Shown here one piece after another: positions 1 through 14,893 of a stretch of DNA of 20,050 nt. The first letter of the stretch is position 1. The number at the start of each line of letters is the position of its first letter. The stretch spans positions 1-20,050 of IMG/VR virus record IMGVR_UViG_3300044729_001303; one strand, written 5' to 3'. Below the pieces are notes generated by a model. It did not search any database and was not told the origin of the DNA. It was given only the letters and a program-made list of their open reading frames with translations. Origin of the DNA: a virus. A program made the position numbers and the translations under genes.

Positions 1-46
1 TATTGCTACGCGCGTCCATAGGTCGCACTATCGTGCTCCCGAGTGC

Positions 47-173
47 TGTCGGAATTCTTTACACTGTGTTTCCTTTGTATTCAAGTACTTAGCTCACTTC
101 TCATAATAGTGTAAAGTTTCCTGACAACCTAAGTGCTTGATTCTTATAGGGCAGATGTCGGAATATTTTACAC
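47..173. repeat. three copies of an 18-base element plus an enclosed inverted repeat
   Basis: TGTCGGAATTCTTTACAC (47-64) and TGTCGGAATATTTTACAC (156-173) are direct copies. GTGTAAAGTTTCCTGACA (109-126) is a degenerate inverted copy. A second inverted repeat, 79-92 with 129-142, can form a 14-base stem with one mismatch and one G-T pair. The repeats could be binding sites for a phage or host regulator, or part of a folded leader RNA. No function is proven. Confidence 0.6.
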
Positions 174-273
174 CTATAGAATATACTCATTCTCATTTAG
201 CACCTAACCTATTGATTCTATTGATTGTTTTATAGCTGGCATGGGCCTTGCTCTATAGAGGGCGTAGTCCACG

Positions 274-289
274 TTCTTTAACAGTTCGA
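274..289 (+). promoter_or_regulatory. boxA-like element 1
   Basis: TTCTTTAACAGTTCGA is nearly identical to the second copy at 502-517 and resembles the rRNA-operon boxA core CTCTTTAACAATT, which is bound by NusB-NusE (S10) for antitermination. The assignment rests on similarity alone. Confidence 0.45.
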
Positions 290-454
290 CCGATGTTCTA
301 TACCTCAGGTTGTAGTCTAACCTTTGGAATAACCTAGGCACCATTATACCTAGCTTCTTTCGGATGGTAGTAAGAACCTATCCGCCCTGATAATGAGATA
401 CATTCTCATAATGGGTTTGTGCGATATGTTGAACCCTGCCCGATTAATTATGCT

Positions 455-528
455 GCTAGTTATTCTCAGGTGAACATCGGAGCACGACAGGCTTGTCCTG
501 TCTCTTTAACAATTCGATGATAACTAGC
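455..528 (+). promoter_or_regulatory. hairpin plus boxA-like element 2 inside a closing stem
   Basis: GCTAGTTAT (455-463) and ATAACTAGC (520-528) form a perfect 9-base stem. Inside are a 6-base hairpin (GACAGG 486-491, loop CTTGT, CCTGTC 497-502) and then CTCTTTAACAATTCGA (502-517). The last contains the full rRNA-type boxA core. Hairpin followed by boxA is the order seen in rRNA-operon leaders (boxB then boxA). This supports an antitermination role for the long early transcript but does not prove it. Confidence 0.5.
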
Positions 529-712
529 TAACCACCTAATACTATTGTGTGGTGGATGTCGTTAGCTATGTCTCCCGTAAAGATGCGCTAGCAAACTAGC
601 GAAGGATGACGAGAGTGAGACTAAACATTCAATAGAAAGAATCCATCACAACGAGAGCATGGCTTGTCCGTGCTCTCCCTGATGCACTCTTTGCATCTTG
701 CCTATCAGGCAA
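525..712 (+). other. tandem stem-loops ahead of the first gene
   Basis: Successive foldable elements are visible. TAGCTAA (525-531) with TTAGCTA (562-568) encloses CCACC/GGTGG (532-536/551-555). CGCTAG-CAAA-CTAGCG lies at 586-601. A 10-base stem GAGAGCATGG / CCGTGCTCTC with loop CTTGT lies at 653-677. GATGCA/TGCATC (681-697) competes with TTGCCT-ATC-AGGCAA (698-712). They could be RNase III processing sites, as in T7-like early transcripts, or a structured RNA. They end 23 bases before the start codon at 736. Confidence 0.5.
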
Positions 713-735
713 CCAATTACATTGAAAGGATTATC

Positions 736-1239
736 ATGTTCCAGAAAATCGAAGTGTCCAAGCTGCAATCTCAAATCTCCTCCTTCGGCAAGAAGCAAGC
801 TGAAATTCAAGCCCTGCTCACTGGCATCATTGCCCAATGTGTTTATCAATCGGTTGCACATAACAATGCTGATCCTGGCATCAAGCTCATTGGGGCTTTG
901 TTCTCCAATGGTTACAATCGGACCAATGACACAATCACATTCCTTTGCAAAATGGGTAACTTTGCTTACAAGAAGGATGCTGGTATCTTCTTCAAGGGGC
1001 ACTATGCGAAGAATGAGGAACTCGCTGTTGAATTGGCGGAGAAGTGTATTAGCAATCCGATGTTCACGATTGTGAAGGAACAGAAAGTAGCGCAAGACCT
1101 TGACCTTACGAAAGCCTTGAAAGCCCTTGTTGCACGGGCTAAGGCAACTATCAAAGAAGGCAAGCAAGTGCTGGTTGATGATGACAAGGAAGCCGAACTC
1201 TTTGCCATGATTGAGGAGTATGTATCTGCTAAGGCTTAA
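736..1239 (+). CDS. early phage protein of unknown function, 167 aa
   Basis: The start is the ATG at 736, preceded by AAAGGA at a good distance; an in-frame upstream start at 664 lies inside a stem-loop and has no ribosome site. The product is a soluble, mainly helical protein with no signal or membrane segment. It begins MFQKIEVSKLQSQISSFGKK and has a Lys/Ala-rich helical stretch near residues 125-150 and an acidic patch DDDKEAE near 151-157. It is the first and largest gene after the structured leader, so high early expression is likely. I cannot name a family for it. Its place suggests a host-takeover or early nucleic-acid-related role, which is inference only. Confidence 0.85.
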   Translation: MFQKIEVSKLQSQISSFGKKQAEIQALLTGIIAQCVYQSVAHNNADPGIKLIGALFSNGYNRTNDTITFLCKMGNFAYKKDAGIFFKGHYAKNEELAVELAEKCISNPMFTIVKEQKVAQDLDLTKALKALVARAKATIKEGKQVLVDDDKEAELFAMIEEYVSAKA

Positions 1240-1320
1240 CCTGTTAGCCTTACACGTCAACATCCTCTGAAATATGGGGATGTTCGCGGGTAATGTTACC
1301 TTGTTATTATGGGGACTATT

Positions 1321-1437
1321 ATGTTTATTAATGAACAGTATGATTTTGATTGGTCGGAAGATTATGAACAAGCTTTCTATTCTGACAAAATGTGCAATCG
1401 TCTCCTTGATTGTTGTTTTACTTGGGATAATCTGTAG
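1321..1437 (+). CDS. small acidic protein, 38 aa (hypothetical)
   Basis: The ORF opens with ATG after GGGGA at suitable spacing and encodes a hydrophilic, aromatic-rich peptide starting MFINEQYDFDWSEDYEQ, with a CC pair near residues 31-32. It overlaps in another frame with the membrane-peptide ORF at 1364-1459. Only one of the two may be real. The ribosome site favours this one. Confidence 0.45.
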   Translation: MFINEQYDFDWSEDYEQAFYSDKMCNRLLDCCFTWDNL

Positions 1438-1459
1438 CTTCCAAACATCTAGCCCTTAA
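1364..1459 (+). CDS. alternative small membrane peptide, 31 aa
   Basis: The peptide begins MNKLSILTK and has one hydrophobic span at about residues 10-25 (CAIVSLIVVLLGIIC). A GGAAG lies just upstream of its ATG but very close. It ends inside the 5' arm of the terminator at 1451. Similar single-span micropeptides occur at 1706, 2061 and 2368, which supports it. The overlap with 1321-1437 weakens it. Confidence 0.35.
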   Translation: MNKLSILTKCAIVSLIVVLLGIICSFQTSSP

Positions 1460-1492
1460 CGACAAGATTGCCTTGTCCTAGGGGCTTTTTGT
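1451..1492 (+). terminator. rho-independent terminator
   Basis: AGCCCTTA pairs with TAGGGGCT, and the inner stem GACAAG (1461-1466) / CTTGTC (1472-1477) closes loop ATTGC. TTTTTGTTTTT follows. It ends the transcript unit of the 167-aa gene, or attenuates read-through into the small-gene cluster. Confidence 0.8.
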
Positions 1493-1514
1493 TTTTCCAC
1501 TGTTGGAGAATGGA

Positions 1515-1673
1515 ATGAGCAGGGATGAGATTATTAATTGGATTGTGGAGATAGCCCCCTGGATGGCATCAGAGGATGATGAAACTATCCTGGATGTATA
1601 TGAAACCTATAGACAATATAGGGATGATGGGCAATCTCATGAGATTAGCAAACAATATGCTGGCCTGTTGTAA
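1515..1673 (+). CDS. small acidic protein, 52 aa (hypothetical)
   Basis: ATG at 1515 follows GGAG at 1505-1508. The product starts MSRDEIINWIVEIAPWMASE and is acidic, with a predicted amphipathic N-terminal helix and a Tyr-rich middle (YETYRQYRDDG). No known domain is recognised. It is the first gene after the terminator at 1451, so it probably begins the next block of small genes. Confidence 0.6.
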   Translation: MSRDEIINWIVEIAPWMASEDDETILDVYETYRQYRDDGQSHEISKQYAGLL

Positions 1674-1705
1674 TATGACCGACCCTCTCGCATAAGGAAA
1701 CTAAC

Positions 1706-1780
1706 ATGCCATATTGGGCTTTCCTTTTTTACCCAGGAATTATCCTGATTGATGTTGTTTACTTTTATCTAACTCTTTAG
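1706..1780 (+). CDS. membrane micropeptide, 24 aa
   Basis: AAGGA at 1694-1698 sits seven bases before the ATG. The peptide (MPYWAFLFYPGIILIDVVYF then YLTL) is almost wholly hydrophobic, enough for one membrane span. The stop lies next to the ribosome site of the gene at 1790. The same DNA could form an AAGGAAA/TTTCCTT hairpin followed by T residues, so a terminator is the alternative reading. Confidence 0.4.
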   Translation: MPYWAFLFYPGIILIDVVYFYLTL

Positions 1781-1789
1781 GAGAAGAAC

Positions 1790-1996
1790 ATGACATATTT
1801 TGTAATGGCTCACAAACGTGATCGGACAGGCTTGTCCTGTCATGGCGTACTAGAAAACGTTCGTATTGGCGGATACAAGAACAAAGCTCAAGCCTATGCA
1901 CGATTTCGGAAGTATGCTACAGCTGAAATCAAAGTGTATGCTGCTGCTGGCTTGCGTACTGTTGCTATTCGTATTAATGGAAGGGAACTACAATGA
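1790..1996 (+). CDS. small basic protein, 68 aa (hypothetical)
   Basis: The start is well supported by TAGGAGAAGAAC just before the ATG. The product is rich in Lys, Arg, Ala and Tyr and has no membrane segment. The pattern (VRIGGYKNKAQAYARFRKY followed by VYAAAGLRTVAIRING) suggests an alpha/beta fold that might bind nucleic acid, but no family is recognised. The codons for RTGLSC contain a perfect copy of the GACAGG-CTTGT-CCTGTC hairpin of the leader (1825-1841), so translation and an RNA signal overlap here. Confidence 0.75.
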   Translation: MTYFVMAHKRDRTGLSCHGVLENVRIGGYKNKAQAYARFRKYATAEIKVYAAAGLRTVAIRINGRELQ

Positions 1997-2070
1997 AACC
2001 TGGATATGCCCATGATTATGACACTTGCTATGCATGTTGGATTACTTGGAAGGAACAAACATGGTATTAA
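1993..2070 (+). CDS. micropeptide with two Cys, 25 aa
   Basis: The ATG overlaps the stop of the previous gene (CAATGA) and follows AAGGGA. The peptide is Tyr/Trp-rich and contains CYAC near its middle. It is too short for a family call. The coupled start and overlap with the next ORF (2061) fit the style of the cluster. Confidence 0.4.
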   Translation: MKPGYAHDYDTCYACWITWKEQTWY

Positions 2071-3216: not shown

Positions 3217-3230
3217 AGGTCGGTCATCAT
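3217..3230 (+). repeat. dispersed 13-14 base repeat, copy 1
   Basis: AGGTCGGTCATCAT covers the ribosome site and first two bases of the start codon of the gene at 3229. Identical cores lie at 5057 and 9763, a shorter inverted core (10 bases) at 1675-1684, and a degenerate copy near 18154. Confidence 0.5.
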
Positions 3231-4611
3231 GTATTTTACCTTCCATAAACTCTATGAAGCATTTGAAACTGCTACTCTCCCGGATGGATGGGAGTTCAAG
3301 GATAGTGGTCTTTACTTTGAGGGGGTGTGTCATTACTACATCTCCCGTTGTACTACAGATACGACTACGGTGGATGTTTACAAATACAAAGAAGGTTGGT
3401 TTTATGAAAACACACGGCCAAGAGTAGCTTATGATTACCATATCCTCTCTCTTCTCTGGCCTGAAGAAATCCCTGAAGGTCTATATCGTGGGTTCATTCA
3501 TCCTAAATTGTGGGATGAATTCCTTTCTGCTACTGAAGGGAAATCTGGACAATATAAACGTTCTTGGATGTATAAGAAAACAGGGGTAAAGGGCACTCTT
3601 GCCAAAGACTACAATACAGGGGAAATTCTTCCCAAGAATATGTTAAAAACTATCTGGTTGGATGGTGTACCTGAGTTCTTCGGAGATACTTCTTTCTTGC
3701 TTGATCGCGAGAAATACTTTTGGGATAATGGGAGGTACTACACACTAGGGGACCATTACTATGAAGTAGCTGGTGTGAAAATTCCTTTCTCCTTCCTTAT
3801 AACTTATTACAACTACTGTGATGAGCATGGCATTTACTATGGAATTGAATGCCAAGACTGTAAGAAGAAATATCAAATCTGGGAGTACAATACTCGTGCA
3901 GAATCCATCCTACCTTTTAAGGATAATGGAGAAACCACTCCTGTTTACATGGGTATTGAATTGGAATATGAAGATTGCAAAGATCAGGTTAAAAATGTAG
4001 TAGATGCCTTGAATGGTCATGCCATTGTAAAGCGGGATGGCACTATTGATTACGGCTTTGAAATCTGTACTGCCCCTGCTACTCTTGCAGTACACAAGAA
4101 AGCCTTTCAAGGTTTCTTTGACAAAGTAAAATTGTTTGTCAAGAAAAATTGTGGGATGCATGTTCATGTGGATAGGCGTAAAATGGGAGAAATGCAACTA
4201 GGTAAACTCCTTGCCTTCCTCTATAAGAAGGAGAATATCCCTTGGATTGAAGCTATTGCAGGACGTGCCTATTCAAAGAATCGCTATTGTCTAGCAGAGA
4301 ATGAGAGGAAGATAACTGATAACTTTCATTCTCGCCATGAATTCTACGCTAAGCGAGTAAGGGGTTCAGCAGGTAAATATGAAGCATTGAATACTTCTCC
4401 CGCAGATACTATTGAATTCCGTATCTTCTCCCCTCCCAAGGATGCAAAGACACTTTATATGCGCCTTGAGTTTGTTCAAGCTCTATTTGATTGGACACTT
4501 CCAGGTGTATGTGGTGTGAGAGAAGCTGCTGATATTGATAGCTTCAAGGGATTTGTTAAGAAGTATCGGAAGGTTTACCCTGAATTCTATGAGGTGGTCA
4601 AATGTGCATAA
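3229..4611 (+). CDS. amidoligase-type enzyme, 460 aa
   Basis: The C-terminal half matches the amidoligase family related to glutamine synthetase and gamma-glutamyl-cysteine ligase (COOH-NH2 ligase fold). Visible motifs are GIELEYE at about residues 242-248, IVKRDGTIDYGFEICTAP near 265-283, CGMHVHVDR at 308-316 and a late TIEFRIF near 394-400. These supply the Glu, His and Arg residues expected for ATP, metal and substrate binding. The N-terminal half (1-230) is unlike the core and carries a Cys cluster (C...ECQDCKKK) near 200-215. Such enzymes are expected to form an amide bond with ATP. The next gene is a class II glutamine amidotransferase and the one after an ATP-grasp ligase, so a short biosynthetic or peptide-tagging pathway is likely. 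The target is unknown. Confidence 0.85.
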   Translation: MYFTFHKLYEAFETATLPDGWEFKDSGLYFEGVCHYYISRCTTDTTTVDVYKYKEGWFYENTRPRVAYDYHILSLLWPEEIPEGLYRGFIHPKLWDEFLSATEGKSGQYKRSWMYKKTGVKGTLAKDYNTGEILPKNMLKTIWLDGVPEFFGDTSFLLDREKYFWDNGRYYTLGDHYYEVAGVKIPFSFLITYYNYCDEHGIYYGIECQDCKKKYQIWEYNTRAESILPFKDNGETTPVYMGIELEYEDCKDQVKNVVDALNGHAIVKRDGTIDYGFEICTAPATLAVHKKAFQGFFDKVKLFVKKNCGMHVHVDRRKMGEMQLGKLLAFLYKKENIPWIEAIAGRAYSKNRYCLAENERKITDNFHSRHEFYAKRVRGSAGKYEALNTSPADTIEFRIFSPPKDAKTLYMRLEFVQALFDWTLPGVCGVREAADIDSFKGFVKKYRKVYPEFYEVVKCA

Positions 4612-5396
4612 TCGTAGCTTCCCCCCAAGGTAAGGTTGTCCCTAAAGAAACCCTTGCTGAATGCTTTCGATGTAATTCAGATGGTGCGGGATATATGTAT
4701 TCTGATGGTAATGAATTGGTAGTAGAGAAGGGGTTCTTTACCTTCGATGAATTCTATGACAGTTATACTCCCCATGCTGAAAAGAAAATCATTCTGCATT
4801 TCCGTATTAAGACACATGGAGAAAAGAATAAGGATAATTGTCATCCCTTTAATGTATCGGAGGATATGGCTTTTGTTCATAATGGTATTATCAAGATTGA
4901 GGAGAACCATCCGGAGTATTCTGATACATGGCATTTTAATGAAAAGATTATTAAACCCATGTATCGGGATAATCGCGCTTTCCTGAAACGCCTTTATAAT
5001 CAAGAGCTTATTAAATCCTATATTGGATGGAGTAAGCTGGTATTCATGGATCGAAAAGGTCGGTCATCAATCCTCAATGCTGAGAAGGGTATTTGGGATG
5101 ATGGGGTTTGGTACAGCAACACTTCTTATCAACCTCCAAAGAAATATCCCACCCAACAACATCAAAATAAGTTTGCTGCTAATGAACCTTCCTTCATTGA
5201 AGGTGAGTTAGTTGTATTCCGGTATAACTATGGGAAGAACTTCCAGAAAGATGATTGGGCTTATGTGGAAAATGTTTTCCCCAATGGACAACTTGAGGTG
5301 ATTGTTCACAGGCGAATGGATAATGGAACATACCAAGAAATACTAGCTACTGTTCCAAAATATGCTGTAAAAGCCTTGGAGGAAGGATATGTTTAA
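4602..5396 (+). CDS. class II glutamine amidotransferase, 264 aa
   Basis: The protein begins MCIIV. Cleavage of Met would expose Cys2, the N-terminal nucleophile of GATase II (Ntn hydrolase) enzymes, which release ammonia from glutamine. The supporting pattern is SDGAGYMY (about 26-33), HFRIKTHG (about 66-73), NCHPFN and FVHNGII (about 92-98), the usual substrate-pocket and oxyanion segments. The C-terminal 90 residues are divergent, with an FIEGELVVFRYNYGKNF stretch of SH3-like character. There is no synthase domain, so ammonia or the glutaminase reaction would serve a partner, most simply the amidoligase whose last ten bases it overlaps. GAGGTGG precedes the start. Confidence 0.88.
   Translation: MCIIVASPQGKVVPKETLAECFRCNSDGAGYMYSDGNELVVEKGFFTFDEFYDSYTPHAEKKIILHFRIKTHGEKNKDNCHPFNVSEDMAFVHNGIIKIEENHPEYSDTWHFNEKIIKPMYRDNRAFLKRLYNQELIKSYIGWSKLVFMDRKGRSSILNAEKGIWDDGVWYSNTSYQPPKKYPTQQHQNKFAANEPSFIEGELVVFRYNYGKNFQKDDWAYVENVFPNGQLEVIVHRRMDNGTYQEILATVPKYAVKALEEGYV
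5057..5069 (+). repeat. dispersed 13-base repeat, copy 2
   Basis: AGGTCGGTCATCA lies within the amidotransferase gene, read as GRSS. Its frame differs from that of the copy at 9763, so protein conservation does not explain the match. Confidence 0.45.
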
Positions 5397-5643
5397 GGTT
5401 GGAGATAGGGTTAGGGTTAAAATAGATGCTGATGATCTTTCTATAGACTATAAAAGCGATTTACGGGGAGAAGTATTTACAGTTCAATCAGTAGTACATA
5501 CTTCTGTGCTTCTTCTAGAAGTCTGTTGGTGGGTACTTCCATCAGCCCTTGAGCTTGAGTCTGTCATACCCCTTACAAAAGAAGAAGGGATTCTCAAGAA
5601 AATTGCACACTTGTATAAACTCTTTGATGAAAGGAAGAAATAA
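5389..5643 (+). CDS. small beta-domain protein with KIAHLYKLF tail, 84 aa
   Basis: It starts MFKVGDRVRVKID, a pattern typical of SH3/KOW-like small beta-barrels, and ends GILKKIAHLYKLFDERKK. The same tail closes the proteins at 7653-8114, 8111 and 8561, so this is the first of four paralogue-like proteins with variable beta domains and a constant C-terminal helix. GGAGGAAGGAT gives a strong ribosome site. The start overlaps the previous stop, and the stop overlaps the next start (TAATG). It lies between the amidotransferase and ATP-grasp genes and could be a carrier, adaptor or substrate for them. That role is inference. Confidence 0.8.
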   Translation: MFKVGDRVRVKIDADDLSIDYKSDLRGEVFTVQSVVHTSVLLLEVCWWVLPSALELESVIPLTKEEGILKKIAHLYKLFDERKK

Positions 5644-6374
5644 TGTGGAAAGTAATTAGTCCTCGTATGGCTCGGGAAAGTGCTGAAACTTTGCAGTATA
5701 CTCTCAATCATTTTCATCCTATTGAGGAGGAAATTAAGATTAATTGGGGAAATAGTGGATTCAATGCTAACGATCCCCGAGAAGTGTTTGGTAATAAGTG
5801 TGAAGCAGTTTACCGTAGTGCAAGGAAAGATGTTTTCTTTCAACTTTGTAAGAAGATGGGTACTGTTCCTGTAGTAAAGGAGGAGGATGAGTACTCTCCT
5901 GGATACTTCATCCATGATGATCCTACTGGACACAATGGGGGTGGTGTAAGGTACTTAGGCGTTGGTGAACCGCATATTGTTGTGTTGAAAGCAATTCAAG
6001 AAGGTAAACTTGTTACCAAACAAATCAAAGGTACAGAGTATCGTGTATATTTCTGTTATAATATGGTGCCTAAGATTTACATGAAGGTTCCTCTTACAGA
6101 AGATACTCCCGAGAACCCTATCCAGAATAGCCACAATGGCTATGGTTATCTTAGTAATCCACCTTCACTCAAGAGAATTGAGAACCTAAAAGAAATCCTT
6201 TTGTCAAGTACTAAAGAAGTAGCGGATAAACTGGAACTTTCCTATGGAGCCATTGACTTCATTGTATCTACAGACTATACTGTTTACATCCTTGAAAGTA
6301 ACAGTGCTCCTACCCTCTTCAGTGAAGAGCTTGTAGATGGTTTTGCTGAACATATTGCTCGGAGGTTCAAATGA
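5643..6374 (+). CDS. ATP-grasp ligase-like protein, 243 aa
   Basis: The C-terminal part carries ATP-grasp hallmarks: a basic strand VTKQIKGTEYRVYF (about 120-140), then GAIDFIV (about 201-207) and YILESNSAPTL (about 218-228), where Glu and Asn are the usual Mg2+ ligands. The Gly-rich segment GHNGGGVRYLG (about 98-108) can act as the nucleotide loop. ATP-grasp enzymes join a carboxylate to an amine or thiol through an acyl-phosphate. With the amidoligase and glutaminase just upstream this forms a three-enzyme ligation module. AAAGGAAG is the ribosome site. The stop overlaps the ATG at 6371, the original start of the interrupted gene. Confidence 0.82.
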   Translation: MWKVISPRMARESAETLQYTLNHFHPIEEEIKINWGNSGFNANDPREVFGNKCEAVYRSARKDVFFQLCKKMGTVPVVKEEDEYSPGYFIHDDPTGHNGGGVRYLGVGEPHIVVLKAIQEGKLVTKQIKGTEYRVYFCYNMVPKIYMKVPLTEDTPENPIQNSHNGYGYLSNPPSLKRIENLKEILLSSTKEVADKLELSYGAIDFIVSTDYTVYILESNSAPTLFSEELVDGFAEHIARRFK

Positions 6375-6547
6375 AACTAGAGGATGCGCCGAATGGGGAG
6401 GTTGTCCGCAACCGGATCGGCACGGAACACACCAGCCTGATCTTCATCGCCGTCAAGGCGATCGAAGCGTGGTTTCTCGCGGATTCCGCTGCGCTGCATC
6501 CGGGCTACGGCTTGAACTATTCCGCTTTGGGAAAGGATGAAGCATGA
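6371..6547 (+). CDS. fusion: phage start codon region + C-terminal part of TOPRIM-like (DUF4276-type) protein, 58 aa
   Basis: The ATG, its GGAGG ribosome site and codons MKLE belong to the phage gene. From codon 5 the sequence is GC-rich and reads DAPNGEVVRNRIGTEHTSLI, then IAVKAIEAWFLADSAAL, typical of the middle of DUF4276-type proteins. The product stops 58 codons in, and family members usually continue well beyond the AWFLAD motif, so the original C-terminus is missing. The stop overlaps the ATPase start (ATGA). The matching N-terminal part lies downstream at 7653, so the gene is circularly permuted around the ATPase. Whether this short piece folds or acts is unknown; it may only couple translation to the ATPase. 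Confidence 0.6.
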   Translation: MKLEDAPNGEVVRNRIGTEHTSLIFIAVKAIEAWFLADSAALHPGYGLNYSALGKDEA

Positions 6548-7873
6548 AGATCGACCGCATCAAGATTGTGGGGTTCAAGAGTGTGGCCGAGGTCACGCTG
6601 GATCAACTGGAACCTTTCAGCGTATTTGCCGGGCCGAATGGGGCGGGGAAAAGCAATCTGACGGATGCCTTGTCGTTTGTGAGTGCCGTTATTGAACTGG
6701 GGGCCATCAAGGCCATTCGGAAGTTCAACGGGTTTTCGCAAATCCATTGCTACAAGTTCAGGAAACAAAAGGCGAGAACCTTCGAGTTTTCGATTGATGC
6801 GGTGATGAATGGAGAGAAGCTGGCTTATTCCCTGAAGATTCACGACATGGATACCGCGCCGGCTCTGGAGGAGCGCCTTTTAGTGGCGGGCAAATTGATC
6901 TTGCAGCGCAAGAAGGGCGAGCCCGCGAAACTTCGGCAAGGTGAGGAGGGTGCTCTTGGTGACATGCCCAACATGCCTGCGGATGTTTCCGCGCTGCTGT
7001 TCACTGGGGACATTCCGCTTTATCGCTATCTCAACAATATCCGGGTATTCCGTTTTGATCCTTTGGGGGCGAAAGAGCCGGATGCGTCCAGCGCGGATAC
7101 CGGGGAACTGGATGCCTTTGGCCACAATGTGGCGACGATGCTGTCCATCCTGGAGAAAAACCCGGAAATCCGGGAGCAAATCATCGACTGGATGGAATTG
7201 ATCGTACCCGGCATGGAGAAGCTGGGCACGGAACAGCAACGTCTGGATGGACGCACGGTGATCAAATTCAAGGAGGCCGGCACCAAAGCGTATTTCCCGG
7301 CCAATCTGATTTCGGATGGAACCATTTATGCACTGTGCATCATGGCTGCGGTTCTCAGTCGATCTCGGGGCTATGGATTGACCTTGATCGAGGAACCGGA
7401 ACGCGGCATCCATCCCAAGGCGATTGCCGAATTGGTGCAGTTGATGCGGGATAACGCTACGCCTGAGCATCCGGTGCTGGTGACGACCCATAGCGAGTCG
7501 GTGGTGAGGGCGTCGAAGCGGGAAGAGCTCTGGCTGGTCAACAAGGTGGATGGAAAAACCACGGTCAAGAATGCGGCGCAAAACAGCGATGACCTGGGGA
7601 GTTTGGGTCTGGACACCGCCTGGCTGATGAATCTCTTCGATGGAGGTTTGCCGTGGTGAGGGTGAGCTTCATCGTCGAGGGCGACACGGAAAAAATCATC
7701 ATCGAGTCTGCCGCCTTCATGGCCTGGGCCAAGGCGAGCGGAATCGAAATCTGTGCGCCAGTGATCAATGCCAAGGGCGGGGGAAACCTGTTGCCCCAGA
7801 ACATGGCGCAAATCGTCATGCAGGCGAAGCGGGCGAATCCTGACCACATCGTCATCCTGACGGACCTGGAGGA
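6377..7873 (+). mobile_element. foreign GC-rich insertion with permuted ATPase/TOPRIM module
   Basis: Flanking DNA is AT-rich with phage codon use, while this block is clearly GC-rich. The ends are CTAGAGGA (6377-6384) and CTGGAGGA (7866-7873), one mismatch in eight, 1489 bases apart. Joining 6371-6384 to 7874-8114 gives exactly 85 codons, an 84-residue protein MKLEEFSIGDIL... that aligns with the next gene (MKFEDFMVGDVL...) and has the shared tail. The insert is therefore an interruption of that gene. Gene order inside (TOPRIM C-part, ATPase, TOPRIM N-part) suggests capture of a circular intermediate through short homology. No transposase, terminal inverted repeat or recombinase is present. 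An assembly or amplification chimera is the main alternative. Confidence 0.75.
6544..7659 (+). CDS. OLD/AAA_21-type ABC-like ATPase, 371 aa
   Basis: It begins MKIDRIKIVGFKSVAEVTLD, the usual SMC/RecF/OLD-like first strands. Walker A GPNGAGKS is at 30-37, a signature-like LISDGTIYAL lies in the last third, Walker B LTLIEEPERGIHP follows, and the switch-type TTHSE comes next. All ATPase motifs appear intact, and the length suits a complete protein of this family. Such ATPases commonly pair with a TOPRIM-type nuclease in phage-defence modules (OLD, Gabija-like and PARIS-like arrangements). Here the partner gene is split around it. AAAGGA six bases before the ATG is a good ribosome site. The gene came from a GC-rich donor. 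It may still be made by the phage, perhaps for exclusion of rivals, or may be passive cargo. Confidence 0.88.
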   Translation: MKIDRIKIVGFKSVAEVTLDQLEPFSVFAGPNGAGKSNLTDALSFVSAVIELGAIKAIRKFNGFSQIHCYKFRKQKARTFEFSIDAVMNGEKLAYSLKIHDMDTAPALEERLLVAGKLILQRKKGEPAKLRQGEEGALGDMPNMPADVSALLFTGDIPLYRYLNNIRVFRFDPLGAKEPDASSADTGELDAFGHNVATMLSILEKNPEIREQIIDWMELIVPGMEKLGTEQQRLDGRTVIKFKEAGTKAYFPANLISDGTIYALCIMAAVLSRSRGYGLTLIEEPERGIHPKAIAELVQLMRDNATPEHPVLVTTHSESVVRASKREELWLVNKVDGKTTVKNAAQNSDDLGSLGLDTAWLMNLFDGGLPW

Positions 7874-10860: not shown

Positions 10861-11018
10861 TCTGCTCTATCCTCCTCTCTGTAGTGCTATCGGTCCCCTC
10901 CTTATTGCCTTCTCAAGGCACCTATAAGCCCCTAGGTTCAATTAAAAAGGCTCAGGGTATACGAGGGTATGTAGACTGTAATTTTGATGCAAGGAACGTG
11001 TATGTATGCAAACCTTAA
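10857..11018 (+). CDS. small putative exported protein, 53 aa
   Basis: The start overlaps the previous stop (ATGA). Residues 2-18 (ICSILLSVVLSVPSLLP) are hydrophobic and followed by SQG, similar to a signal peptide or a membrane anchor, although there is no basic residue before them. Two Cys lie at CNFDARNVYVC in the C-terminal part and could form a disulfide in the periplasm. It overlaps the start of the polymerase exonuclease ORF by 13 bases. The gene at 13813 has a comparable plan. Confidence 0.5.
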   Translation: MICSILLSVVLSVPSLLPSQGTYKPLGSIKKAQGIRGYVDCNFDARNVYVCKP

Positions 11019-11761
11019 TTTTAGATATTGAAGCAGATGCACTACTGAGAGATGCCACAAAAGTATGGTGCATAGTGAGCTATCTTGTAGAGGAAGCTAC
11101 TTTTTACATATATGTTGACAAGGATGAAGACTTATGCTACCCTAAGAATACTATTATATATACAGATATATATAGTTATCTAGCTTTTATAGAAGATAAA
11201 TATATAGTAGGACATAATATTATAGCTTATGATCTACCATTATTAGCTAAATTATTTAATTTTAAGTATAAAATAGATATTAATAAACTAGCTGATACTA
11301 TAATTATGTCTAGATTATTTTTTCCTGATAGGAATGGACATGCTTTAGAAGATTGGGGTATTCGATTAAGAATGCCTAAAGGAGTTCATAAAGACTTTAG
11401 TAAACTTTCTAATGATATGTTGCAGTATTGTATACAAGATGTTAATATTACTAAGAGAGTCTATGATGTATTAAAAGAGGAAGCAGGAGATTGGGATTGG
11501 TCTGCATCTCTTACTCTTGAGTATAATATGCAACATATCCAGACTAAGCAAGAATTGAATGGTGTGTTGTTCGATATAAAGAAAGCTGAAACCCTACTAA
11601 CCAAGATACAAGAGGAAATCCATGAAATAGAACAGAAAGTGATACCTGCAATACCTATGACTATTAAGGATTTAGGAGAGGTTAGGAAACCTTTCCTGAA
11701 GTCTGGTGACTATTCTGAAATTACTAAAAGGTGGTTAAATGATGCAAATTACCCTGTCTGA
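11006..11761 (+). CDS. DNA polymerase (PolA/T7 type), 3'-5' exonuclease part, 251 aa
   Basis: This is the proofreading half of a T7 gp5-like polymerase. Exo I is LDIEAD (Asp7, Glu9), Exo II GHNIIAYDLPLL (Asp76) and Exo III YCIQDVNIT (Asp145). All three acidic sites are present, so proofreading should be possible. The ORF then continues to a linker ending SGDYSEITKRWLNDA and stops at 11761. The polymerase domain resumes at 11987 with LVGGPFTR, which corresponds to the T7 region just before the palm (VAGAPYTPVEHVVF). The chain is therefore divided exactly between domains. AAGGA precedes the start. The section 11100-11460 is much richer in AT, ATA and TTA codons than neighbouring genes. Confidence 0.92.
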   Translation: MQTLILDIEADALLRDATKVWCIVSYLVEEATFYIYVDKDEDLCYPKNTIIYTDIYSYLAFIEDKYIVGHNIIAYDLPLLAKLFNFKYKIDINKLADTIIMSRLFFPDRNGHALEDWGIRLRMPKGVHKDFSKLSNDMLQYCIQDVNITKRVYDVLKEEAGDWDWSASLTLEYNMQHIQTKQELNGVLFDIKKAETLLTKIQEEIHEIEQKVIPAIPMTIKDLGEVRKPFLKSGDYSEITKRWLNDANYPV

Positions 11762-11987
11762 TACCAATGGTGACTTTTCCATCTACCTTAAGGAAGATTT
11801 TGAAACCATTGATGATTACATTGAACTCCTAGTAAAACCTGTTCTCCGTGCTGCTGGCTTTGGTGAAGCCTCCCTGGATAAATACTTTGTGAAGGAAGAA
11901 CCTTACACAGTTAGTTATTCTGAATTTGAACTTGAGCCTATTGAGAAGAAAGTTGTTGATAAAGTTGCTAAGAAATATTATGAGTGA
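11739..11987 (+). CDS. small acidic protein between the two polymerase ORFs, 82 aa
   Basis: It opens with ATGATG after AAAGGTGG, inside the last codons of the exonuclease ORF, and its TGA overlaps the ATG of the polymerase ORF (TGATG). The sequence is acidic and looks like real coding DNA (ITLSDTNGDFSIYLKEDFET ... SLDKYFVKEEPY), not an intron core. No nuclease motif is seen, so it is not an obvious homing gene. It could be a factor that bridges the two halves or a passenger. The near-repeat TGATGCAAAT at one end and TGATGACTAAT at the other suggests insertion through short homology. Confidence 0.75.
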   Translation: MMQITLSDTNGDFSIYLKEDFETIDDYIELLVKPVLRAAGFGEASLDKYFVKEEPYTVSYSEFELEPIEKKVVDKVAKKYYE

Positions 11988-13120
11988 TGACTAATCTTGT
12001 AGGTGGGCCTTTCACAAGGATAGGATTTGAACCTATCAATCTTAATTCTTCGGATCAAGTAAAGAGGTATTTGCTCTCTCAAGGCTGGCAACCTACGGAA
12101 TATAACTATCGTAAGGATGCTAAAGGCTACTTGGTCAAGGATGAAGATGGTAATCCTATTCCTACTAGCCCTAAGCTTACAGAAGATAGTTTTGATAGTG
12201 TCAAGGGAGATATTCCTAAGCAAGTAGCACGAAGGAATATCCTTATCCATCGTCAACGTATGTTGAAGAATACGAGAAGGGATGGTGAAGAAAAAGGTTT
12301 GTTGAATGCAGTAAGGAATGATGGGAGGATTGAGGCCAGATGTATACCCCAATCTACCAACACAGGACGTGCTACTCATTCTGTTGTTGTGAATATCCCA
12401 TCTATCCATGCAGTATATGGGGCTGAAATTAGAGATTTGTTCATCGTACCTGAAGGTTACAGTATGGTTGGTACGGATGCTGCTGCTCTTGAGGCTCGTA
12501 TCTTTGCTCACTTTATGTTGAATTATCCTGGAGGTGATGAACTAGCTAACCTTGTTCTTCATGGAGATATCCACCAAGAGAATGCGGATATGTGGGGTTG
12601 CTCACGGAATGATGCTAAGTCTCCGTACTATGCACTGATGTATGGAGCACAGATTCCTAAATTCTCTGCTACCTTGGGGGTTGATCTAAGAACAGGTTCT
12701 AGGCACTTTGATGCTTTCTGGACTAGATATCGTGCTCTTGACCTCTTCAAACAAGACTTGACAAAAGCATGGGAAGCTAGGGGAGGTAAGAGTGGTGGCT
12801 TTATACGTGGCATAGACGGAAGAAAACTTCATGCTCGTAGCCAACATTCTCTTGTCAACCTTATGTTTCAAAATGCGGGTAGTGTTGTTGTAAAAGTTGC
12901 AGCACTCTATCTTGACAAATGGATAATTAGAGAGGAGTTAGATGCAAAGCAGTTGATATTTTATCATGATGAGTTAGAGCATGAGGTACTGGATGCACAT
13001 GTAGATAGGTTCTTGCCTCTTGCTAGACAAGCTTTTAAGAAAGCTGGTGAGTTCTTCAAGCTTAATGTAGAGATTGTTGGCGAACCTAAGGTAGGAAGGA
13101 GTTGGTACGATGTGCACTAA
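11987..13120 (+). CDS. DNA polymerase (PolA/T7 type), polymerase part, 377 aa
   Basis: This is the nucleotidyl-transfer half. Motif A is VGTDAAALEARIFAHF, the fingers O-helix region is RNDAKSPYYALMYGAQ, and motif C is YHDELEHEV. Lys and Tyr of the O-helix match T7 Lys522 and Tyr526, and the Asp residues of motifs A and C are present, so catalysis should be intact. The upstream GRATHSVVVNIPSIHAVYG is the usual template-binding segment. No T7-type thioredoxin-binding insertion is apparent. ATG 11987 overlaps the TGA of the 82-aa gene, so the polymerase is probably translated by coupling and assembles with the exonuclease half in trans. The start could also be GTG 11984. Confidence 0.93.
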   Translation: MTNLVGGPFTRIGFEPINLNSSDQVKRYLLSQGWQPTEYNYRKDAKGYLVKDEDGNPIPTSPKLTEDSFDSVKGDIPKQVARRNILIHRQRMLKNTRRDGEEKGLLNAVRNDGRIEARCIPQSTNTGRATHSVVVNIPSIHAVYGAEIRDLFIVPEGYSMVGTDAAALEARIFAHFMLNYPGGDELANLVLHGDIHQENADMWGCSRNDAKSPYYALMYGAQIPKFSATLGVDLRTGSRHFDAFWTRYRALDLFKQDLTKAWEARGGKSGGFIRGIDGRKLHARSQHSLVNLMFQNAGSVVVKVAALYLDKWIIREELDAKQLIFYHDELEHEVLDAHVDRFLPLARQAFKKAGEFFKLNVEIVGEPKVGRSWYDVH

Positions 13121-14653: not shown

Positions 14654-14728
14654 GCCGGAGTAGCTCAATGGTAGAGTTCTTCACTTGTAATGAAGGGGTT
14701 CACAGTTCAAGTCTGTGCTCCGGCTCCA
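14654..14728 (+). tRNA. tRNA-Thr (anticodon TGT)
   Basis: Acceptor GCCGGAG pairs with CTCCGGC. The anticodon stem CTTCA/TGAAG carries loop CTTGTAA (anticodon TGT). The T arm is CACAG-TTCAAGT-CTGTG. CCA is encoded. It reads ACA codons. Confidence 0.95.
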
Positions 14729-14729
14729 T

Positions 14730-14804
14730 ACCCTTGTAGTTAAATGGATATAACAGAAACCTTCTAAGTTTCCATTCTAGGTTCGATTCCTAGCGAGGGT
14801 GCCA
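14730..14804 (+). tRNA. tRNA-Arg (anticodon TCT)
   Basis: Acceptor ACCCTTG/CGAGGGT has one G-T pair. The anticodon stem GAAAC/GTTTC encloses CTTCTAA (anticodon TCT). The T arm is CTAGG-TTCGATT-CCTAG. CCA is encoded. It reads AGA, a codon typical of AT-rich phage genes and often rare in GC-rich hosts. Confidence 0.95.
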
Positions 14805-14809
14805 GATAT

Positions 14810-14893
14810 GGGAGATTGGTGAAATTGGTAAACACAAGGGATTTAAAATCCCTCGCCTTTGGCTTGAGGATTCGACTTCCTCATCTCCCACCA
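14810..14893 (+). tRNA. tRNA-Leu (anticodon TAA)
   Basis: Acceptor GGGAGAT/ATCTCCC, anticodon stem AGGGA/TCCCT with loop TTTAAAA (anticodon TAA), and a long class II variable arm are seen. Discriminator A and CCA are encoded. It reads TTA, which is abundant in the exonuclease part of the polymerase. Confidence 0.95.

Follow-up and report, generated by a model that had tools for sequence, protein, structure and literature searches.

Leader and first gene of the early region

The window analysed here, the 20,050-nt stretch that makes up positions 1 to 20,050 of the IMG/VR virus record IMGVR_UViG_3300044729_001303, begins with repeats and promoter-like elements, followed by a leader with two boxA-like sites, a first early gene and a terminator-like hairpin (Table 1). 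An earlier note on this DNA had paired the two sites, and their positions hold: TTCTTTAACAGTTCGA at 274-289 and CTCTTTAACAATTCGA at 502-517 are identical at 14 of 16 positions. Read by eye against the published gamma-proteobacterial boxA consensus GYTCTTTAANA (PMC5725501), the first site (273-283) agrees throughout and the second (501-511) at all positions except one. When up to three mismatches to TTCTTTAACARTTCGA are allowed, the window holds four matches for 0.67 expected, a number reached in 1 of 100 shuffles, and the two leader sites are the only ones with no or one mismatch. There is no ATG frame of at least 30 aa within 264-735, and the boxA-consensus sites thus lie in an untranslated leader, about 220 and 450 nt before the start codon of gene 1; an alternative start of this gene, TTG at 664, falls inside the leader. 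The terminator that the earlier note had placed inside the early operon is likewise present, as a terminator-like hairpin with a T run.

Table 1. Early-region features in window coordinates
Feature	Position	Strand	Remark
Enhancer-like site 1	47-63	-	TGTAAA-N5-CCGACA, exact to TGTMAAN{4,5}YYGACA
Enhancer-like site 2	110-126	+	TGTMAAN{4,5}YYGACA match
Enhancer-like site 3	156-172	-	TGTMAAN{4,5}YYGACA match
IHF-like site YAANNNNTTGATW	205-217	+	presumed consensus; second match 130-142
Sigma-54-like -24/-12 element CTGGCAT-N5-TTGCT	236-252	+	exact; start would be expected near 264
Untranslated, probably structured leader	264-735	+	no ATG frame of at least 30 aa; fold z about -4.3
boxA1	273-286	+	11/11 to GYTCTTTAANA
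5' arm of predicted stem closing unit 1, CCGATGTTC	290-298	+	9/9 pairing with 472-480
5' arm of the earlier note's 9-base stem, GCTAGTTAT	455-463	+	pairs with 520-528; alternative conformation
3' arm of predicted stem closing unit 1, GAACATCGG	472-480	+	predicted fold
boxB-like hairpin directly before boxA2	486-502	+	
boxA2	501-514	+	10/11 to GYTCTTTAANA
3' arm of the earlier note's 9-base stem, ATAACTAGC	520-528	+	pairs with 455-463
First early gene, phrog_1448 match	736-1239	+	
Intrinsic terminator after first gene	1451-1496	+	hairpin and T run, 1451-1486

The first gene encodes a helical protein of 167-201 aa across the loci described below. It had no match to N families in PHROGs and Pfam, and N proteins may escape sequence-based detection. 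Structure prediction reached a pLDDT of 42 for the window protein alone and of 69 for the L008 protein with seven sequences; the L008 model matched none of the solved structures at E <= 0.001, and the structure search gave five viral matches at this threshold, the one named being an uncharacterised protein of phage CVT22.

The phage had been taken by the earlier note to be T7-like, and this stands in part: window proteins match primase-helicase, DNA polymerase and exonuclease, but a scan of 10 window proteins gave no match to a phage RNA polymerase, and the relatives of gene 1 are of Zobellviridae type. This tentative placement of the 20-kb record runs through phrog_1448, matched by gene 1, likewise by L002 and weakly by L005, whose protein finds Zobellviridae. 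Cobaviruses, which are related to T7-like phages, are reported to carry no RNA polymerase gene (PMC6918029). The DNA polymerase matches (phrog_17) are spread over two frames, 11006-11761 and 11984-13120, with exonuclease and polymerase parts and a small frame between them. Elsewhere in the window, a cluster at 3229-6374 has amidoligase, glutamine-amidotransferase-like and S6-glutaminyl-transferase-like matches, and a similar cluster seems present in L002; an AAA ATPase of AAA_21 / AbiEii type (6544-7659) shares 54% identity with a protein frame of a short E. coli phage record that has no annotation; and three tRNA genes (Thr, Arg and Leu) lie at 14654-14893.

Conservation of the leader and its promoter elements

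The window leader is a real regulatory leader, conserved among divergent relatives. DNA searches of window positions 1-2000 among phages, near and distant, and tblastn of gene 1 in phages gave no match, and direct BLASTP of gene 1 against L005 was not significant. A counterpart is the IMG/VR contig L002, with a 56% identical copy of gene 1 and a leader whose two boxes lie 193 nt apart. Viral contigs were scanned for a sigma-54 element with boxA downstream, which gave three stretches (the contig of L002, L005 and L007), and the first-gene protein of L005 found five viral loci, L008-L012, among which L008 is the contig of L005 and L009 that of L007, together with 23 phage records. Thirteen of these records were taken in, namely Erwinia phage Pecta, Klebsiella phages Asterion and Klyazma, Citrobacter phage CVT22, Salinivibrio phage CW02, Vibrio phages 1.253, 1.235 and VPMCC5, and five oyster-metagenome phages; two RefSeq duplicates and eight Aeromonas records matching 45% of the query were left out. 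L025, being almost a duplicate of L017, was set aside, and the counts cover 19 loci that carry the first gene.

A sense-strand leader boxA with at most two mismatches to YTCTTTAACAATT is present in 15 of the 19 loci, and with at most one mismatch in 12; the boxA-bearing leaders include those of the Zobellviridae Pecta, Klyazma and CW02. None was found in the leaders of L021, L022 and L023, or in the 500 nt scanned before the gene of L015. The earlier note had suggested looking for the paired element in related leaders, and two or three copies at the two-mismatch threshold, 193-272 nt apart, do occur in 10 of the 19 (the window, L002, L009, L010, L012, L017, L018, L019, L020 and L024), seven of which (all except L009, L012 and L019) have at least two copies with no more than one mismatch. 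Across the 22 whole records, boxA with at most one mismatch occupies 37 places against 7 for the reversed pattern; by our own reading, 26 of the 37 lie on the sense strand of a leader, including the copies in L025 and in the terminal repeat of Klyazma. Gene 1 follows the leader in all these loci.

A sigma-54-like promoter, which the earlier note had missed, would put the transcription start of the window upstream of both boxes. The element was recognised with YTGGCAY-N5-TTGCW, which we take to be the sigma-54 consensus, and is the only match with at most one mismatch in 20 kb; shuffled sequences give 1.11 such matches, so this single-window count means little. Across the 22 records, exact YTGGCAYNNNNNTTGCW occurs 10 times against 0 for the reversed pattern, nine times upstream of an early leader, two of the nine being near copies in phages 1.253 and 1.235 and the 1.253 site, at the other end of its linear record, being placed by analogy. 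The element lies within 60 nt of the first boxA in five loci, the window, L002, L008, L009 and L011, three of which (L002, L008 and L009) were partly selected by the sigma-54 and boxA scan (L002 being known earlier) and one of which (L011) came in through its protein. It lies about 150 nt before the first boxA in L019 and about 700 nt before it in phage 1.235.

The surroundings of the element resemble promoters that combine sigma-54, IHF and a distant activator, with a -24/-12 element, an IHF-like site and upstream repeats. Matches to the sequence that we take to be the IHF consensus number five in the window for 1.7 expected, a weak signal alone; an IHF-like site precedes the sigma-54 element in the same relative place in the window, L002, L008 and L011, and not in L009. 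The repeat pattern TGTMAAN{4,5}YYGACA was derived from these very sites, and its count in the 22 records, 11 rows against 4 reversed, is therefore a check of specificity: 10 of the 11 rows precede the sigma-54 element, in the window, L008, L009 and L011, and one lies elsewhere.

Two candidate activators were weighed. GlrR was rejected, its motif, presumably TGTC-N10-GACA, having a different spacing. A site in L011, GTCAATAAATCGAC, resembles the FleQ consensus GTCaNTAAAtTGAC quoted, and called unreliable, in PMC6120874; the resemblance is weak, the window sites are one base longer and the promoter here is in a phage, and FleQ was dropped as a firm assignment. A scan of a genome collection for tandem enhancer sites, as of a host regulon, gave five matches, in Marivita, Clostridia and Gemmatimonadetes contigs. 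DnaA-box-like TTATCCACA sites also occur just upstream of sigma-54 promoters, two each in L008 (526-562) and L011 (3890-3926) and one in L009 (4237-4245).

Other leaders carry other promoter-like elements. L002 is without the enhancer-like repeat and has an antisense sigma-54 core match and a strong sigma-70-like TTGACA-17-TATACT 705 nt before boxA1. Sigma-70-like sites were found in L014, L016, L017, L019 and L020, extended -10 sites in L010 and L012, and a weak sigma-70-like site before the first boxA of L011; no site of comparable quality precedes the first boxA in the window (273 nt), L008, L009, L013, L018 or L024. Sigma-54 is thus not general in the family.

Folding of the leader RNA

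As the earlier note had observed, a hairpin stands upstream of the second boxA: GACAGG-CTTGT-CCTGTC forms a perfect 6-bp stem whose final base is the first base of boxA2, and boxA1 has no hairpin directly before it. Family-wide, a hairpin of -4 kcal/mol or lower ends within 8 nt upstream of 12 of 30 leader boxA sites, compared with 1047 of 9510 other leader positions (11.0%; binomial 4e-5). The same 17-nt hairpin, GACAGGCTTGTCCTGTC, recurs in the window at 1825-1841, within a 68-aa frame (1790-1996), and a related one, GGCTTGTCC, lies at about 652-677.

The 9-base stem that the earlier note took to close the whole unit does exist, but as a recurring closing stem it was rejected: it crosses the predicted 290-298/472-480 stem, so that, short of a pseudoknot, only one of the two can form at a time, and no counterpart was seen in the predicted fold of L002. 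The recurring closing stem is the predicted one; two runs placed its closing energy within the best 4.8% and 5.6% of same-spaced leader positions. Across the family, in 5 of 14 units the sequence that follows one boxA pairs with the sequence ahead of the next boxA better than 95% of same-spaced positions (Fisher 1e-5 over 13 units). Adjacent positions and related loci do not count as independent, and the P values for hairpins and stems are to be taken as guides.

In predicted pairing, boxA is unpaired at 0.57 compared with 0.38 for the rest of the leaders, a value reached by none of 5000 random sets. Thirteen leader stretches fold better than their shuffles (z -2.3 to -6.3), whereas three coding controls from first genes do no better than theirs (z +1.4 to -1.8). 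Two-sided compensatory changes exceed all 500 null shuffles in both directions for L008/L009 (23, 30), L010/L012 (25, 31) and L008/L011 (38, 28), and in one direction only for L009/L011 (30 against a null maximum of 29; 19 in the other). The pair made up of the window and L002 (47% identity) gives 13 and 14, equal to the null (14.0, 13.4), and coding and upstream controls stay within the null range. The hairpin enrichment, the less paired boxA and the compensatory changes in close relatives argue that the leader is probably a structured RNA, a claim that rests on the relatives and not on the window, since window/L002 covariation is at the null.

At gathering thresholds, Rfam returned no family except tRNA, and a permissive search of the window added two snoRNA matches below their thresholds. 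Unit 1 of L019 (2010-2256) and unit 1 of L024 (2117-2329) share a stretch of about 30 nt, GGACAGTCAAGGATAAAGACGTTAAAACCC, and differ elsewhere. Stretches resembling what we take to be a Fur box lie between the two boxA sites of the window (389-411, where the stretch also forms a hairpin) and of L002 (4690-4713).

Candidate mechanism and alternatives

With a probability of roughly 0.55, we favour a reading of these sequences in which a sigma-54-driven untranslated leader would load host Nus factors as rRNA operons do, shielding early transcription from Rho. Host RNA polymerase with sigma-54 would start near 264, perhaps assisted by IHF and by a host enhancer-binding protein at the three upstream repeats. 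The new RNA would expose boxA1 at once and, about 230 nt later, the boxB-like hairpin and boxA2. NusB/S10 could then attach to the boxes and join NusA, NusG and probably SuhB in an rRNA-type complex on the polymerase. This complex would shield the untranslated, probably structured leader of about 470 nt, together with the early operon, from Rho, and it may also assist folding of the leader into stem-closed units like those of pre-rRNA. In rRNA work, an rRNA boxA is reported to give partial protection from Rho to a reporter that has a noncoding leader of 567 bp, and folding, not antitermination, is argued to be the main role of the complex (PMC4807359).

The nearest known system is the boxB-boxA of leader and spacer in E. 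coli rRNA operons (rrnTAC), which shares the boxA consensus, a hairpin followed by boxA (in the window at boxA2), a second boxA farther along, and a long untranslated structured RNA with a stem-closed domain after boxA (as described in PMC10250234 and PMC4807359). Here, in contrast, the leader belongs to a phage early region and is followed by a protein-coding gene, rRNA is replaced by units of 193-272 nt, the promoter in the window lineage is sigma-54-like, and Nus dependence is putative. The leaders of CRISPR arrays are likewise noncoding and carry a boxA that boosts the transcription of a long untranslated RNA (PMC7862264), but with one boxA, a repeat array and no phage early operon. A bolder version is conceivable, though we regard it as rather unlikely: repeated boxB-boxA-stem-closed units of about 200-270 nt, under enhancer-driven sigma-54 control in one lineage, would form a pre-rRNA-like phage leader, a new structured RNA that captures the host rRNA transcription machinery and may divert NusB/S10.

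The terminator after gene 1 bears on how far such protection could reach. In 10 of the 19 loci, including the window and all six of L002 and L008-L012, the gene-1 stop has a terminator-like hairpin no more than 700 nt away (that of L018 is weak, and that of L021 overlaps the stop), and the next ~2.2 kb hold one such hairpin in total over 18 loci. Published descriptions have complexes of the rRNA boxA type counter Rho, and N complexes resist both Rho and intrinsic terminators (PMC4807359, PMC10250234); read-through at 1451 therefore needs something more, and boxA alone is a doubtful way past this terminator. Under the favoured Nus-loading reading, transcription beyond 1451 could come from partial read-through, from a further factor such as the gene-1 product, or from a downstream promoter.

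This arrangement also invites a lambda-like reading, which we consider improbable, in which an N-like gene-1 product, bound to the boxB-like hairpins and acting together with Nus factors at boxA, would make the polymerase ignore intrinsic terminators including 1451. Lambda itself is laid out as pL - nutL - N - tL1, and the order promoter, boxes, gene 1, terminator and operon resembles it, with boxA and a hairpin near the early promoter, a leader always before gene 1 in these loci, and a terminator after the first gene. However, boxA precedes boxB in lambda and the hairpin here precedes boxA2, hairpin loops vary among relatives, the terminator is absent in 9 of the 19 loci, and the helical gene-1 protein has no family match to N. 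The window proteins scanned gave no sign of a repressor region. PMC11893012 describes temperate phages that depend on Nus factors and have an N-like protein together with nut sites.

It also seems unlikely that the leader is itself the product, an abundant early structured noncoding RNA in which boxA would serve folding or act as a NusB/S10 sponge away from rRNA synthesis. The compensatory changes and fold z scores, the presence of boxA in two or three copies in 10 of the 19 leaders and the lack of any Rfam family above threshold except tRNA fit such an RNA; yet there is no sign of a separate RNA end, the structure could equally be regulatory, and two or three boxes per transcript make a small sponge unless the RNA is very abundant. 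Still less probable is that boxA represses or tunes the first gene instead of aiding elongation: an upstream boxA is reported to repress E. coli suhB, but the suhB-like search in the same source used boxA within 50 bp (PMC5725501), far closer than the window boxes stand to their gene. That the boxA sequences arose by chance or as by-products of coding and serve no function is very improbable: most of the 81 tandem-boxA places examined from a scan of viral contigs, which holds at least that many, fall in open frames, and that scan was rejected as stand-alone evidence, but boxA is conserved in divergent relatives and exceeds its reversed-pattern and structure controls.

Among phages, boxA is chiefly familiar from temperate ones that encode an N protein, and rRNA-type boxA leaders recur here in Zobellviridae-type phages that seemingly depend on host polymerase. 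Should these leaders prove functional, lytic phages would commonly target the Nus factors of their hosts, and an early promoter of sigma-54 type would link infection to the regulatory state of the host. Among the matches listed by a literature search that left most subscription papers outside, no paper dealt with boxA leaders of lytic podophages or with sigma-54 early phage promoters.

Phages outside this family have promoter-boxA modules as well. A search for CTCTTTAACAA downstream of a sigma-70 promoter gave 71 viral stretches, which may include temperate phages with N, against 34 for the reversed boxA, only a twofold difference with one control; the contrast grows for distinct sequences (56 against 19) and for those outside open frames of at least 100 aa (45 against 3). 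Of the latter, 44 of 45 have a G before the pattern, a boxA consensus base absent from the search pattern. Just 11 of the 45 have a hairpin of -4 or lower ahead of them, compared with 11.1% of shifted positions, and 17 have one of -2 or lower, compared with 435 of 2413 shifted positions; GNRA loops account for 13 of these 17 against 20 of the 435, some of the 13 being related sequences. Modules of this kind accompany a phage's own RNA polymerase gene in AAPEc6, from the tandem-boxA scan, and in Achelous; they are also present in Providencia phage PR1 and, beside A1/A2 genes, in Salmonella phage S124, both presumably T5-like, as fits their size and gene names.
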